This document shows positions 15,069 to 19,894 of a DNA stretch of 47,263 bases, piece after piece. Position numbers and translations under genes: made by a program. The notes beneath the pieces were generated by a model. The model had not been told where the DNA came from and ran no database searches. It saw only the letters and a program-made list of their open reading frames with translations. The stretch is from contig JAHEFK010000006.1 in NCBI GenBank assembly GCA_024640225.1, forward strand, positions 41,588-88,850, read 5' to 3'. Position 1 is the stretch's first letter. Every line of letters starts with the position of its first letter. Origin of the DNA: Bacteroidota bacterium (GTDB lineage Bacteria > Bacteroidota > Bacteroidia > Chitinophagales > Chitinophagaceae).

Positions 15069-15527
15069 ATGGCAATATATAAATTGATAAGAAAGCAAGT
15101 CATTCCTGCAGACATCGCAACCTTATGGGATTTCTTCAAAGACCCTTCCAACTTGACTGCTATTACGCCCTCTTACATGAATTTTGTTATTAAAACAATG
15201 GATACGAGCGATGATATCTATGCCGGTCAAATGATCACCTACCGAGTGGCCCCCATTGCCAAAATACCTTTGTTTTGGATGACTGAAATAACCGCCGTAG
15301 TAAAACATCAATATTTTATAGACGAACAGCGCAGAGGCCCTTACAAAATGTGGCATCATCAGCATCACTTCTCTATTACAGAACGGGGTGTAGAAATGAC
15401 CGATATTGTTCATTATGAATTACCCTTTGGTATATTAGGTCAGTTTGCCCATTGGCTATTTGTAAAAAAACAATTAAATCAAATTTTTGACTATCGATTT
15501 GAAAAAATTGCCACTCTATTTAATTAA
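15069..15527 (+). CDS. SRPBCC (START-like) ligand-binding protein of the carotenoid island
   Basis: 152 residues, small single-domain START/SRPBCC fold with a hydrophobic cavity. Recognisable features: an N-terminal strand YKLIRKQVIPADIATLWDFF, PSNLTAITPSYMNF, the central VAPIAKIPLFWMTEI, FIDEQRRGPYKMWHHQHHF and VHYELPFGILGQFAH. The RGPYKMWHHQH pattern is typical of Bacteroidota proteins that lie beside crt genes. No enzymatic role is established for them; isoprenoid or pigment binding is my guess. It precedes the MerR regulator by 24 nt and is probably on the same transcript. Only 23 nt separate the pyrH terminator from its ATG, so its promoter must overlap the terminator or expression depends on read-through. 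Confidence 0.8.
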   Translation: MAIYKLIRKQVIPADIATLWDFFKDPSNLTAITPSYMNFVIKTMDTSDDIYAGQMITYRVAPIAKIPLFWMTEITAVVKHQYFIDEQRRGPYKMWHHQHHFSITERGVEMTDIVHYELPFGILGQFAHWLFVKKQLNQIFDYRFEKIATLFN

Positions 15528-15551: not shown

Positions 15552-16475
15552 ATGAAGTATATGGAAGCAACTACAGAATTAGAATTAGCACAAAATAAAT
15601 TTAGTATCCGTGACCTGGAAAATCTGACGGGTATCAAAGCACATACGCTAAGAATTTGGGAACAACGCTACCAGATTATTGTACCTAAACGTACGGCAAC
15701 TAATATTCGATATTATGATGCAAGCGATTTGAAATTAGCCTTGCAGATTTCAATGCTAAATAATTATGGCTATAAAATTTCTAAGATTAAAAGCATGACT
15801 GAAGAGAATATCACTTCTCTTTTAAGTAAAATAAATGACCCGAAATTTAAGCTAGAAGCCATTGTTAATGAGCTTATCAGCTATACTATAGATTTAGATA
15901 CCGCGGCTATTGAAAAAACCATTCAATCCTTTATTGACAAAAATGGCATACCACAATTAATTGAAGAATTGCTTTTTCACTTTTTAGAGAAAATTGGAAT
16001 TATGTGGATGACCAATCGTCTAAATCCAGCACAAGAACATTTAACCTCAAATATTATAACCAGAAAAATTGCGGTAGCCTACGAGCAACTTTCTACTCCT
16101 ATAAGTAAAAAATCTAAAGTACTTTTATTTTTGCCAGAGGGCGAAATTCATGATCTTGCATTGTTGTACGTTCAATATTTATTAAAAGCGCAAGGTGTAG
16201 AAACCATTTATTTAGGTGCCAATACACCCATAAAAGATGCGATCTATGTGTGTCAGGTAAAAGCGCCAACCCATGTATATATTCACCTTACATCCGTTAC
16301 GGATTCTTTCGATGTAAAACGATTTATTGAAATTGCACATAAATCATTTCCAAATTCACAAGTGCTGGTTTCAGGCAGTTTGTTGAAGGGTAAGAAGCTA
16401 AAGTTATACAAAAATATCCAATACCTTTTTAGCTTAAGTGATGCAAAATCAGCTATTTATAACAATATGCTCTAA
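15552..16475 (+). CDS. MerR-family regulator with CarH/LitR-like cobalamin-binding domain
   Basis: 307 residues. The winged-helix MerR domain is at about 17-85 (FSIRDLENLTGIKAHTLRIW, then EQRY and the NIRYYDASDL wing). A helical-bundle B12-binding domain (about 100-185) carries the CarH signature Trp152-x9-Glu162-His163 (MWMTNRLNPAQEH). A Rossmann-like B12 domain (about 188-300) carries Glu198-x-His200, where His200 aligns with the cobalt-ligating His; the motif is EIHDLA rather than the usual ExHxxG. YLGANTP and VSGS further on fit cobalamin domains. CarH-type proteins are tetrameric dark-state repressors that fall apart when light breaks the adenosylcobalamin Co-C bond, switching on carotenoid genes. 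Position next to sigma-crtI-crtB-idi agrees. A real Shine-Dalgarno-like GGAAGG (15541-15546) precedes the ATG, rare in this phylum. Binding of B12 is predicted, not shown. Confidence 0.85.
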   Translation: MKYMEATTELELAQNKFSIRDLENLTGIKAHTLRIWEQRYQIIVPKRTATNIRYYDASDLKLALQISMLNNYGYKISKIKSMTEENITSLLSKINDPKFKLEAIVNELISYTIDLDTAAIEKTIQSFIDKNGIPQLIEELLFHFLEKIGIMWMTNRLNPAQEHLTSNIITRKIAVAYEQLSTPISKKSKVLLFLPEGEIHDLALLYVQYLLKAQGVETIYLGANTPIKDAIYVCQVKAPTHVYIHLTSVTDSFDVKRFIEIAHKSFPNSQVLVSGSLLKGKKLKLYKNIQYLFSLSDAKSAIYNNML

Positions 16476-16477
16476 CC

Positions 16478-16510
16478 TTGTTTAACTTTTATATATAAAA
16501 GTATAAACAA
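16478..16510. promoter_or_regulatory. Candidate operator dyad 1 (TTGTTTA-N19-TAAACAA)
   Basis: Inverted half-sites TTGTTTA (16478-16484) and TAAACAA (16504-16510) flank a perfect 16-bp palindrome CTTTTATATATAAAAG (16486-16501). It begins two bases after the regulator stop codon. Half-site spacing is identical to dyad 2. Confidence 0.65.
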
Positions 16511-16532
16511 AATCTATGCTGCTTATTGAATT

Positions 16533-16569
16533 TTTTGTTTAAGTTTGCACTATCAAATATTAAACAAAA
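16533..16569. promoter_or_regulatory. Candidate operator dyad 2 covering the sigma-crt promoter
   Basis: Perfect 10-bp inverted repeat TTTTGTTTAA (16533-16542) and TTAAACAAAA (16560-16569); within it TTGTTTA-N19-TAAACAA, exactly the geometry of dyad 1 and shifted by 57 nt. It overlaps the -7 box, the predicted start site and the first base of the sigma-factor ATG, so bound protein should block transcription. Confidence 0.7.
16540..16547 (+). promoter_or_regulatory. -7 box of the sigma-crtI-crtB-idi promoter
   Basis: TAAGTTTG matches TAnnTTTG; predicted start near 16554, leader about 15 nt. No well-spaced upstream TTG is present, so the promoter may be intrinsically weak or need an activator such as the ECF sigma factor. 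Confidence 0.65.
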
Positions 16570-17066
16570 TGACCAGCACTGATTTCAATACAGTGATTCA
16601 ATATCACACCGACTTCTTAAGACCTTTTGCAGTATCTTTAACACACAATAGTGAAGATGCAAAAGACTTGTTCCAAGAAACCCTCTTGAGAGCGCTGCTT
16701 TACAAAGACAAATATCAGTTTGGCACTAATTTGAAAGCATGGTTGTATACCATCATGCGTAATATTTTTATCAATAATTACAGAAAAAATAAACGCTTCA
16801 CGAAAGTAAGTAATGAAGCTCCTTCCGATTTGCAACAATACGAAACTGGCAATGCGGCATATAACGAAGGATGGAATCATATGCGCATGCAAGAAATTAA
16901 AACAGCTATTGATGCCTTGCCTAAACCACTACAGTTTTCGTTTGAATTGTATTATGCGGGCTATAAATACCAAGAAATTGCCGATATTACAAAAGAACCA
17001 ATTGGAACAATTAAAAGTAGAATTCACTTTGCTAGAAAAACACTTGTAACGCAATTAGAAAGATAA
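16569..17066 (+). CDS. ECF-type RNA polymerase sigma factor of the carotenoid island
   Basis: 165 residues from the ATG at 16569; an in-frame TTG at 16545 lies inside the -7 box and is rejected. Region 2 (about 8-72) shows NSEDAKDLFQETLLRAL and NLKAWLYTIMRNIFINNYRK, the core-binding and -10-recognition helices. Region 4 (about 108-165) shows ALPKPLQFSFELYYAGYKYQ, EIADITKEPIGTIKSRIHFARK, a helix-turn-helix for the -35 element. No anti-sigma gene is adjacent, so control is probably transcriptional through the flanking operators rather than by sequestration. It is followed after three bases by crtI in the same reading frame. Whether it transcribes its own operon or other pigment genes elsewhere is unknown. 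Confidence 0.93.
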   Translation: MTSTDFNTVIQYHTDFLRPFAVSLTHNSEDAKDLFQETLLRALLYKDKYQFGTNLKAWLYTIMRNIFINNYRKNKRFTKVSNEAPSDLQQYETGNAAYNEGWNHMRMQEIKTAIDALPKPLQFSFELYYAGYKYQEIADITKEPIGTIKSRIHFARKTLVTQLER

Positions 17067-17069
17067 AAT

Positions 17070-18539
17070 TTGAAGCATATAACAATCATAGGAAGTGGAT
17101 TTGCTGGCTTGTCAGCAGCAGCATACATGGCTAAAGAAGGCCATCATGTCACTGTAATTGAAAAAAATGAACAAGCAGGTGGTAGAGCACGCAGTTTTGA
17201 AGCGGCTGGTTTTACTTTTGATATGGGACCAAGTTGGTATTGGATGCCCGATATTTTTGAGTCCTTTTTTCAAGATTTTGGGAAAAAACCGAGTGATTTT
17301 TATCAACTCCTCCGTCTCGATCCTTCCTATCAAGTATTGTGGGAAGATTTACAATTGCCATTACCCGCAAATTTTAATGATTTAAAAGCCGTTTTCGAGT
17401 CGCTAGAAAAAGGGGCTGGCCATCAACTAGAATTATTTTTAAAAGAAGCTGCCTATAAATATGAAGTGGGAATTCACAAGTTCGTAGAAAAGCCAGGCTT
17501 ATCTATAACTGAATTTTTTTCCTTAGATGTTGCCAAGTCCGTTTTTAAAATAGATCTTTTAACTTCGATACATTCGCATGTAAGAAAATACTTTAGCAAT
17601 CCTAAATTGATTCAAATAGCTGAATTTCCAATTCTATTTCTTGGAGCACTTCCCAAAAACACACCAGCACTCTATAGTTTAATGAACTATGCTGACATGA
17701 AATTAGGCACTTGGTATCCAATGGGTGGCATGACTGCCTTAGTAAAGGGCATGCAGCAAGTTGCTACAAATTTGGGCGTTCAATTTAAATTTAACGAATC
17801 CGTTACTTCGTTTGCATACCATAATAAAAAGATCAGTAAAGTCATTACCAATAAAGAGGAATATTTTACAGATGCTGTTATTGCTGCTTGCGACTATCAT
17901 CATTTAGAAACAGCCATACTAGAAGCACCTTATAGAAATTATACGAATGCCTATTGGGAAAAAAGAAAGATGGCGCCTTCTAGCATATTAATATACTTAG
18001 GCATTAATAAAAAACTAAAAAATATTTTACATCACAATCTTCTTTTTGATGCCCCTTTTGACAAGCATGCGCAAGAATTATATACTCAGCCTCAGTGGCC
18101 AAGCGACCCTTTGATGTATGTAAACTGTACCTCGGTAAGTGATCCAAGTGTAGCGCCTGAAGGAAAGGAAAACCTAATGGTATTAATCCCTACTGCTCCA
18201 GGTTTAATGGATACAGAAGAAATTAAAGAAGTATACTTTGAGAAAGCAATAGCTAAACTTGAAAAACATTTTGGAGAAGATATTCAAGGTCATATCTTGT
18301 ACAAACGCGTATACGCAGCTAAAAACTTTATCGAAGATTATCACGCATTTAAAGGAAATGCCTATGGTCTGGCCAATACATTAGATCAAACCGCCATACT
18401 AAAGCCATCTATAAAAAACAAACACCTTCATAATTTAATTTATGCAGGTCAATTAACAGTGCCGGGGCCAGGAGTGCCGCCAGCTATTATCTCCGGAAAA
18501 TTAGCTGCTCAATTAACTATTAAAAACATAAACAAGTGA
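17070..18539 (+). CDS. crtI: Phytoene desaturase (CrtI family)
   Basis: 489 residues. It inserts double bonds into phytoene on the way to neurosporene or lycopene, using FAD at the membrane. The FAD dinucleotide motif IIGSGFAGLSAAAYMA starts five residues in, then VIEKNEQAGGRARSFEAAGF and FDMGPSWYWMPDIF. The C-terminal family signature is YAGQLTVPGPGVPPAIISGK. The start codon must be TTG at 17070: the in-frame stop of the sigma gene lies at 17064-17066, leaving only the codon AAT between, and there is no ATG before the FAD motif. Translation therefore probably depends on ribosomes finishing the sigma gene. The 3' end overlaps crtB by 4 nt (GTGA). The number of desaturation steps cannot be deduced. 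Confidence 0.93.
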   Translation: MKHITIIGSGFAGLSAAAYMAKEGHHVTVIEKNEQAGGRARSFEAAGFTFDMGPSWYWMPDIFESFFQDFGKKPSDFYQLLRLDPSYQVLWEDLQLPLPANFNDLKAVFESLEKGAGHQLELFLKEAAYKYEVGIHKFVEKPGLSITEFFSLDVAKSVFKIDLLTSIHSHVRKYFSNPKLIQIAEFPILFLGALPKNTPALYSLMNYADMKLGTWYPMGGMTALVKGMQQVATNLGVQFKFNESVTSFAYHNKKISKVITNKEEYFTDAVIAACDYHHLETAILEAPYRNYTNAYWEKRKMAPSSILIYLGINKKLKNILHHNLLFDAPFDKHAQELYTQPQWPSDPLMYVNCTSVSDPSVAPEGKENLMVLIPTAPGLMDTEEIKEVYFEKAIAKLEKHFGEDIQGHILYKRVYAAKNFIEDYHAFKGNAYGLANTLDQTAILKPSIKNKHLHNLIYAGQLTVPGPGVPPAIISGKLAAQLTIKNINK

Positions 18540-19375
18540 TCCAACTTTTTGAAACCACCTCTCATGCATGTAGCAAATTAGTTACTAAAACTTATAGTAC
18601 TTCTTTTGCAACCGCCATTCGCTTGTTAGATAAACAAATCCGACAACCAATCTACAATATTTATGGATTTGTAAGGTATGCAGATGAAATAGTAGATACT
18701 TTTCATGACTTCGATAAAGCTACCTTGTTGCAAGAATTTACTAATGAAACATGGTTGGCGATTGAAAGAGGCATTAGTTTAAATCCTATTTTGAACAGCT
18801 TTCAGCAAACAGTAAACAAATACTCCATACCGCATAGCTTAATAAAAGCTTTCTTACACAGTATGGAATTGGACCTTCAAAAAACAGATTATACAACTAC
18901 AGAAGAGTTAAACGAATATATTTATGGATCTGCAGAAGTGGTAGGACTCATGTGTTTATGCGTTTTCTGCAATGGAGATATTGAGCAATATGAATTACTT
19001 AAACCTGCAGCTAAAAAATTAGGTGCTGCTTTCCAGAAAATAAATTTTTTAAGAGATCTGCAAGCAGACAAAATAGACCTTAATAGAAATTACTTTCCTC
19101 AATTAACCAGTTATGAATTTAATGAGACATCAAAAAAATTAATTGAATCCGATATTGAACAAGATTTTAAAGATAGCTTAGAGGGCATTAGAAAATTACC
19201 AAGTGGTGCACGATTTGGTGTGTATACAGCTTTCCAATATTATTACTGTTTGTTTACAAAAATTAAAAACACACGCGCTATTCATGTTATTGAAAAAAGA
19301 ATACGCGTAAATAATTTTCATAAATTATTTATTGTATTTCAATCAAAACTCATTTTTAAAGCTAATTTAATTTAA
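18536..19375 (+). CDS. crtB: Phytoene synthase
   Basis: 279 residues from a GTG that overlaps the crtI stop (GTGA), a coupled start. The enzyme condenses two geranylgeranyl diphosphates head to head to form phytoene. Both Asp-rich Mg-binding motifs are present: YADEIVD (Asp50 to Asp54) and FLRDLQAD (Asp174 to Asp178), the second being the Bacteroidota variant of DxxxD. TYSTSFATAIRLL at the start and FQKINFLRDLQADKIDL/NRNYFP fit the family. Immediately upstream step to CrtI. Gap to idi is 6 nt, so the two are co-transcribed. Confidence 0.95.
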   Translation: MIQLFETTSHACSKLVTKTYSTSFATAIRLLDKQIRQPIYNIYGFVRYADEIVDTFHDFDKATLLQEFTNETWLAIERGISLNPILNSFQQTVNKYSIPHSLIKAFLHSMELDLQKTDYTTTEELNEYIYGSAEVVGLMCLCVFCNGDIEQYELLKPAAKKLGAAFQKINFLRDLQADKIDLNRNYFPQLTSYEFNETSKKLIESDIEQDFKDSLEGIRKLPSGARFGVYTAFQYYYCLFTKIKNTRAIHVIEKRIRVNNFHKLFIVFQSKLIFKANLI

Positions 19376-19381
19376 GAAACT

Positions 19382-19894
19382 ATGAAACATATTAACAACC
19401 ACGTAATACTCGTAAACGAAAAAGATGAATGGATAGGCACTTGTGAAAAGTTGGAAGCACACAAAAGCGGCCAATTACACAGAGCTTTCAGTATTTTCAT
19501 TTTCAATCAAAAAGGTGAAATGCTTTTACATAAAAGAGCATTAAACAAGTATCATTCGGGTGGTTTATGGACGAATGCTTGTTGCTCCCACCCAATGCCC
19601 GGCGAAAGCACCTTACAAGCAGCGCACAGGCGCTTACAAGAAGAATTGGGCTTTGATTGTCCATTGCAGAACTTATTTACCCTTCGTTATAAAAGCAGCG
19701 TTGGCAATGATCTCATAGAAAACGAATACGACCATATTTACAAAGGAATTTATGATGGTACTATACACGCTAATGAAGAAGAAGTAATGGCCTATGAATT
19801 TGTTGCTATGGAAGAATTGAAAAATAGAATAAATAGGGCTCCTCAAGAATTTACAGAATGGTTTAAACTAGCCATTCCAAAACTTACCAATTAA
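19382..19894 (+). CDS. idi: Isopentenyl-diphosphate delta-isomerase, type 1
   Basis: 170 residues, Nudix-fold. It interconverts isopentenyl and dimethylallyl diphosphate and so balances the C5 units for carotenoid synthesis. The catalytic Cys67 is in TNACCSHP, the second catalytic group Glu113-x-Glu115 in LIENEYDH, and the Nudix helix is AHRRLQEELGF. It is the last gene of the island; no lycopene cyclase, hydroxylase or ketolase follows. It converges on a beta-helix lipoprotein gene with only 6 nt between stop codons and no good terminator. Confidence 0.97.
   Translation: MKHINNHVILVNEKDEWIGTCEKLEAHKSGQLHRAFSIFIFNQKGEMLLHKRALNKYHSGGLWTNACCSHPMPGESTLQAAHRRLQEELGFDCPLQNLFTLRYKSSVGNDLIENEYDHIYKGIYDGTIHANEEEVMAYEFVAMEELKNRINRAPQEFTEWFKLAIPKLTN

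Follow-up and report, generated by a model that had tools for sequence, protein, structure and literature searches.

What is the role of two long-spaced inverted repeats that lie between a MerR-type regulator gene and an extracytoplasmic function (ECF) sigma-factor gene heading a set of carotenoid (crt) genes? The question is raised by a 47,263-nt stretch of a Bacteroidota bacterium of the Chitinophagaceae (assembly GCA_024640225.1, contig JAHEFK010000006.1, positions 41,588 to 88,850 of the forward strand), which was analysed at its full length and is called the window here. The two dyads are most probably the paired operators of the adjacent CarH-like MerR protein, which would block the ECF-sigma/crt operon from them, in a layout that varies on the one known for CarH. 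This assignment, proposed in an earlier note made from the DNA letters, is strongly supported by the conservation of the dyads and their co-occurrence with merR, and further by the sigma genes of merR-less genomes, by loci in which merR and crtI occur with no detected sigma gene and by the published CarH half-site. The elements concerned are the following.

16478 to 16510, no strand assigned: upstream dyad (op1), TTGTTTA-N19-TAAACAA, with half-sites at 16478-16484 and 16504-16510
16535 to 16567, no strand assigned: downstream dyad (op2), TTGTTTA-N19-TAAACAA, with half-sites at 16535-16541 and 16561-16567, covering the predicted -7 box and start site
16485 to 16502, no strand assigned: 18-bp palindrome ACTTTTATATATAAAAGT inside op1, not found family-wide
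16540 to 16547, forward strand: predicted -7 box TAAGTTTG of a Bacteroidota sigma-A promoter, fitting TAnnTTTG

The half-site coordinates, the two 19-nt spacers and the 57-nt offset reported earlier were all found to be exact, and op1 and op2, which together span 90 bp (16478-16567), are the sole copies of TTGTTTA-N19-TAAACAA in the window. Their long spacers contrast with the spacing of classical MerR operators. TAAACA is present at all four half-sites and the gap holds no further TnnACA, each dyad consisting of a pair of CarH half-sites TnnACA, which read TTAAACA here, are inverted with respect to each other and have their starts 25 bp apart. The arms of op2 reach 10 bp and op2 covers TAAGTTTG, as had been claimed. 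The palindrome inside op1 also exists, with its length corrected from the 16 bp named earlier to the 18 bp of ACTTTTATATATAAAAGT; it is mismatched in the close relative L002, intact in L003 and absent as such from the family op1 logo, and it was dropped as a core element because the family does not keep it. No dyad was found 5' of merR in the window. In the host assembly (1.85 Mb, 96.5% complete), a search with spacers of 17-21 nt gave three dyad matches, compared with none for the reversed control pattern. The third match (L041 1501-1532, C31:20825-20856) has an 18-nt spacer and 10-bp arms, and is flanked by genes that appear by eye to be CorA-like and glycosidase-like, with no evident carotenoid link. 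The strict scan of the sister genome G017 gave op2 of its crt locus only and no L041 counterpart, so that the third dyad is probably due to chance or species-specific.

A merR relative was found in 93 of the 147 family genomes searched, and 96 merR loci were analysed (90 from the family search and six further ones, L004-L009), the sigma gene following merR in 71 and not being found there in 25. The 71 merR-sigma gaps, which take in the window's own and near-identical ones, were compared as the earlier note had proposed, and the half-sites were found to be kept together with the genes. A dyad with at most two mismatches is present in 70/71 gaps, compared with 3.4 of 71 on average and never more than 8 in first-order Markov-shuffled gaps, and two dyads are present in 46/71. 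By position, both dyads were found at 44 of the 71 loci, the downstream one only at 24, the upstream one only at one (L016, weak) and neither at two; an op1 equivalent is present at 45/71 loci (one of them weak) and an op2 equivalent at 68/71, and the single dyad of L098 falls slightly outside the position window. The offset between the dyads is 55-57 nt in 41 of the 44 positioned pairs, and the spacers are 19 or 18 nt, with the exception of two of 17 nt. The family logo displays a near-invariant half-site, TGTTTAA/TTAAACA, with an inner T- or A-tract. Since the logo set was picked by resemblance, the published half-site TnnACA was counted alone as well: the 68 gaps counted gave 79 inverted pairs spaced 25 bp and 17 spaced 24 bp, where about 0.5 of each would be expected, as against five direct pairs spaced 11 bp, where 1.2 would be. 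An excess of everted TnnACA/TGTnnA pairs spaced 14-16 bp was rejected as a signal, being mostly due to the sigma-gene start ATGTC. Across 97 family genomes, strict dyads numbered 49, compared with four for the reversed pattern. The earlier view that AT-richness would hardly explain the dyads is thus borne out, the shuffled gaps and the reversed-pattern controls both lying far below the observed counts.

The tie between the dyads and merR was evaluated in genomes with and without the regulator. A strict dyad is present in 38/67 merR-bearing genomes compared with 1/30 merR-less ones (Fisher test), the latter being 30 of the 54 merR-less genomes. A sigma relative was found in 11 of these 30, and no dyad lies within 400 bp upstream of it in any (0/11); these relatives are 44-66% identical, with crtI or idi in the fetched stretch of four only, so that some may not be true counterparts. 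For most of the strict dyads (33/49), a merR relative is found no more than 500 bp away, and one of these dyads falls within the coding region of that relative; at L047 (1753-1784, genome G005), a strict dyad in the merR coding region is accompanied by another just 5' of the gene. The remaining 16 are far from merR, and 12 of them were fetched as loci: three stand directly 5' of sigma-crtI or crtI (L048, L052 and L059) and seven lie in stretches with no relative of a window gene. At L046, a relative of the open reading frame (ORF) that precedes merR in the window (15069-15527) starts just 3' of the strict dyad, and at L065 a relative of that ORF lies about 0.8 kb off. Dyads are present in all three loci with merR and crtI and no detected sigma gene (L096, L125 and L126), and among the 22 other non-sigma loci a good dyad was found 5' of merR in two (L017 and L074) and a weak one in two (L009 and L120). 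A dyad with at most two mismatches also precedes merR in 19/68 family loci, a count with no shuffle control of its own (L019, L020, L026-L029, L038, L085, L086, L095 and others), which suggests autoregulation there. On the protein side, the wing motif [TS].[TS]NIR is present in all 84 MerRs labelled dyad-linked. A paralogue clade of 13 MerR/B12-domain proteins (L116-L124 and L127-L130; support 0.999) carries other wings, mostly K..xHR, and ExHxxG in none of its members (0/13); its loci gave no dyad with the exception of one weak two-mismatch site at L120, no strict dyad, and no relative of the window crt genes in the fetched stretches.

Beyond the family, a class-wide search gave a merR match in 157/247 genomes, and loci, 24 of which come from outside the family, were taken for the best matches alone. 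The sigma gene lies downstream of merR in nine of these 24, and two dyads were found 5' of sigma in all nine; in the stretches of the other 15, neither a sigma gene nor a pair of dyads next to merR was seen. Within the family, merR and sigma are divergent at L131, with two dyads between them.

The position of op2 relative to the promoter indicates how the protein might act. The Bacteroidota -7 element is described as TAnnTTTG, with 4-5 nt from the element to the start site (PMC6847099), a distance by which transcription in the window is predicted to start at about 16552-16553, within op2. No clear -33 element was seen in this species. TAnnTT occurs at a fixed place of op2 in 63/65 family copies, and the full TAnnTTTG in 29/65. 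Op2 therefore overlaps the predicted sigma-A promoter of the carotenoid operon, as a CarH operator does. In the dark, the CarH-like regulator would be active and would occupy op1, upstream of the promoter, and op2, where it would cover the -7 box and the start site; the bound protein would deny the housekeeping sigma-A RNA polymerase access to the operon of ECF sigma, crtI, crtB and idi. The operon would be derepressed once the regulator is inactivated, the most likely trigger being light that acts on the adenosylcobalamin (AdoCbl) bound to it, and the ECF sigma factor may amplify the light response. A single tetramer bridging both dyads is possible and cannot be obligatory, since only the downstream dyad is present in 24/71 loci.

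The genes that take part in this scheme are arranged in one direction.

15552 to 16475, forward strand: CarH-like MerR regulator gene, with a MerR winged helix, a B12-binding_2 domain and a B12-binding-like Rossmann domain
16569 to 17066, forward strand: ECF sigma-factor gene, heading the crt gene set (Pfam Sigma70_r2 and Sigma70_r4_2; conserved ATG)
17070 to 18539, forward strand: crtI-type phytoene desaturase gene, likely in the same operon (NCBIfam CrtID above cut-off)
18536 to 19375, forward strand: crtB-like gene of the phytoene/squalene synthase family (Pfam SQS_PSY)
19382 to 19894, forward strand: isopentenyl-diphosphate isomerase gene, idi (NCBIfam above cut-off)

A gap of 93 nt separates the stop of merR (16475) from the conserved ATG of the sigma gene (16569). 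The sigma, crtI-, crtB- and idi-type genes are separated by few bases or overlap at their ends, and owing to this tight packing the whole set is probably transcribed from the promoter in the gap. The ORF at 15069-15527, immediately 5' of merR, gave no Pfam or NCBIfam match and is kept at the same place, with 51-62% identity, in L004-L007 and L013-L016; its product is, judged by eye, presumably SRPBCC-like.

The window protein has the domain set of CarH/LitR, namely a MerR winged helix followed by B12-binding_2 and B12-binding domains, with PF13411 and PF02607 above cut-off and PF02310, at 30.1 bits, just under its cut-off of 32.1. With the NCBIfam CarH equivalog model it scored 82 bits against a cut-off of 400, and by this model it is a CarH relative and not an equivalog. 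It matched the chains of Thermus thermophilus CarH (TtCarH) 3whp and 5c8d by phmmer (E ~1e-16), and the top Protein Data Bank matches of its predicted structure (mean predicted local distance difference test, pLDDT, 86) were TtCarH with AdoCbl and DNA, with template modeling (TM) scores of about 0.55 for the whole chain and, by target length, about 0.8 for the cobalamin domain alone. A signature of light-responsive cobalamin domains has been proposed as GxxW, EH, GxxH and GxxxP (PMC11796333), and all four motifs are present in the window protein and in 58/71 sigma-linked MerRs, the window's included. Dependence on light and AdoCbl is predicted from these protein motifs only.

Several observations weigh against the assignment of the dyads to a light-responsive CarH-like repressor. 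The gap of L090 has no dyad and that of L016 a weak one only. The Fisher comparison of 38/67 with 1/30 ignores relatedness, and the merR-bearing genomes may include some with the paralogue only. Fifteen MerRs with the wing T.TNIR carry no dyad label. In 20 genomes of the class, mostly with unlinked merR, dyads numbered 19 compared with 10 for the control, and none was found in nine genomes. CarH operators elsewhere are 11-bp direct repeats, and those here are two inverted pairs with half-sites 25 bp apart, start to start. The window protein reads GEIHDLA, with Ala at the Gly of ExHxxG, a Gly that is present in 61/71 of the sigma-linked proteins (the L004 relative has the motif in full), and the host assembly gave no match to PF01923, PF02572 or a cobalamin riboswitch.

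The last two of these points also favor the strongest of the alternatives, in which the dyads do serve the CarH-like protein as operators, with the protein of this species independent of light and B12, being CarA-like or responsive to another signal. CarA of Myxococcus acts with no need of B12 (PMC9304148). The presence of GxxW, EH, GxxH and GxxxP in the window protein speaks against this reading, and an adenosyltransferase is encoded in both same-genus genomes; PF01923 is present in 142/147 family genomes, the two sister genomes included, so the absence of the adenosyltransferase from the host assembly is probably a matter of missing sequence. A regulator independent of light and B12 is regarded as unlikely, yet as the alternative to be taken most seriously.

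Considerably less probable is the possibility that the MerR protein activates the operon in the classical manner, by distorting the promoter spacer, instead of repressing it. Op2 of the window's family does enter the -7 box with its left half from the spacer side, as such a mechanism would have it. The register of op2 was followed in 18 hand-chosen loci; four of them offer two or more TAnnTTTR candidates, and L004 offers no candidate. Measured from the TA of the -7 box, the left edge of op2 falls at -5 in one family, a class found via the dyads themselves, at +5 in the window's family and at +15/16 in four others, registers that differ by about one helical turn between families. Spacer distortion would hardly tolerate shifts of this kind, and the characterised CarH proteins, as far as the sources describe them, are repressors. 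In the same loci, op1 lies 58-62 or 79-80 nt upstream relative to the -7 TA. These positions are read, from a small sample outside the family, as repressor sites kept on one DNA face relative to the promoter. A class-wide fixed helical spacing between the two dyads was dropped, the offsets being 42-44, 55-57 and 63-64 nt; phasing is apparent, in the 18 chosen loci, only in where the dyads lie with respect to the -7 box.

It is very improbable that the dyads are bound in the circuit of the ECF sigma factor itself or mark an ECF-type promoter, with no part for MerR. Dyads do stand 5' of sigma in most loci examined, including those of three genomes of one family with unlinked merR (L167, L174 and L169). 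The merR-less sigma genes with no dyad (0/11), the dyads of L096, L125 and L126 at merR-crtI loci with no detected sigma gene and the dyads, with at most two mismatches, ahead of merR itself in 19/68 loci all argue against it. Among genomes with unlinked merR, dyads clearly 5' of sigma-crtI were found in that one family only (L167/L173, L174 and L169), and 9/16 of the dyad loci have no relative of a window gene. In two genomes whose merR locus lies outside the fetched loci, a dyad lies between sigma and crtB (L164) or precedes the sigma gene by about 220 bp (L170).

As inverted repeats between two closely spaced genes, the dyads might form RNA hairpins or terminators on a merR-sigma transcript, an explanation to which we give scarcely any weight: the half-site letters are near-invariant, if partly by selection of the set, where a hairpin would permit paired changes, the sigma transcript would lack part of op2 since this covers the predicted start, and L004 has a separate GC-rich inverted repeat, seen by eye, before op1. 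Chance is practically dismissed, the gap being very AT-rich but the shuffles and the reversed pattern excluding it for the family and leaving it for single sites such as L041.

CarH is a green-light B12 photoreceptor that already serves in light-control tools (PMC11796333). For CarH operators in Bacteroidota, no open-access paper was found by title or start of abstract, subscription papers and preprints being outside the scope of the search, and in a report on a light-induced Chryseobacterium the authors leave the mechanism unknown (PMC7064467). The dyad supplies a motif for carotenoid control in Bacteroidota, and a clade-wide operator of inverted pairs with the CarH half-site would allow a test of how a single kind of DNA-binding domain serves two geometries. 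As a tentative extension, somewhat short of an even chance, the CarH-type photoreceptors of Bacteroidota may follow an operator logic of their own, in which symmetric, long-spaced inverted pairs of the CarH half-site are bound by dimers or tetramers in a geometry other than the direct-repeat mode of TtCarH, two units in helical phase with the promoter act together over the polymerase site, perhaps through bridging, and an ECF sigma factor is gated as a light-induced amplifier.

Two operators per promoter have been described in other systems. The CarA operator of Myxococcus xanthus was initially described as a pair of inverted repeats, one lying 5' of the -35 and the other overlapping it, at which two dimers bind cooperatively; it covers about 55 bp overall and has since been read also as 11-bp direct repeats, whereas the dyads here span 90 bp, with the second over the -7 box. 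The class II LitR proteins of Pseudomonas (PmlR2/PplR1) also have two sites per promoter, one over the -35 and one between the start site and the ATG, but these are TGTACA-N12-TGTACA, 18 bp start to start, and the light sensor is a LOV (light-oxygen-voltage) protein (PMC9758184). Classical MerR operators are likewise palindromic or pseudopalindromic and lie in or overlap a sigma-A promoter (PMC8156234), unlike the present case with its two dyads and a promoter register that shifts by about whole turns between clades.

The nearest likeness is to CarH itself. The proteins of Thermus thermophilus, Bacillus megaterium and myxobacteria recognize the same half-site, TnnACA (PMC9304148), and as here a protein with MerR DNA-binding and cobalamin domains is concerned (PMC9304148, PMC8156234) and the operator lies over the sigma-A promoter of carotenoid genes, which in the window is a predicted one. 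In the characterised operators, 11-bp direct repeats of the form nnnnTnnACAn, partly degenerate, follow one another in tandem (PMC9304148, PMC8156234), with four repeats in B. megaterium and five, degenerate ones included, in Myxococcus, and the window gap holds no exact 11-bp pair. Because the half-site is that of CarH and the exact repeat arrangement is not, the paired dyads are viewed as a variant of the CarH operator instead of one of the known design.
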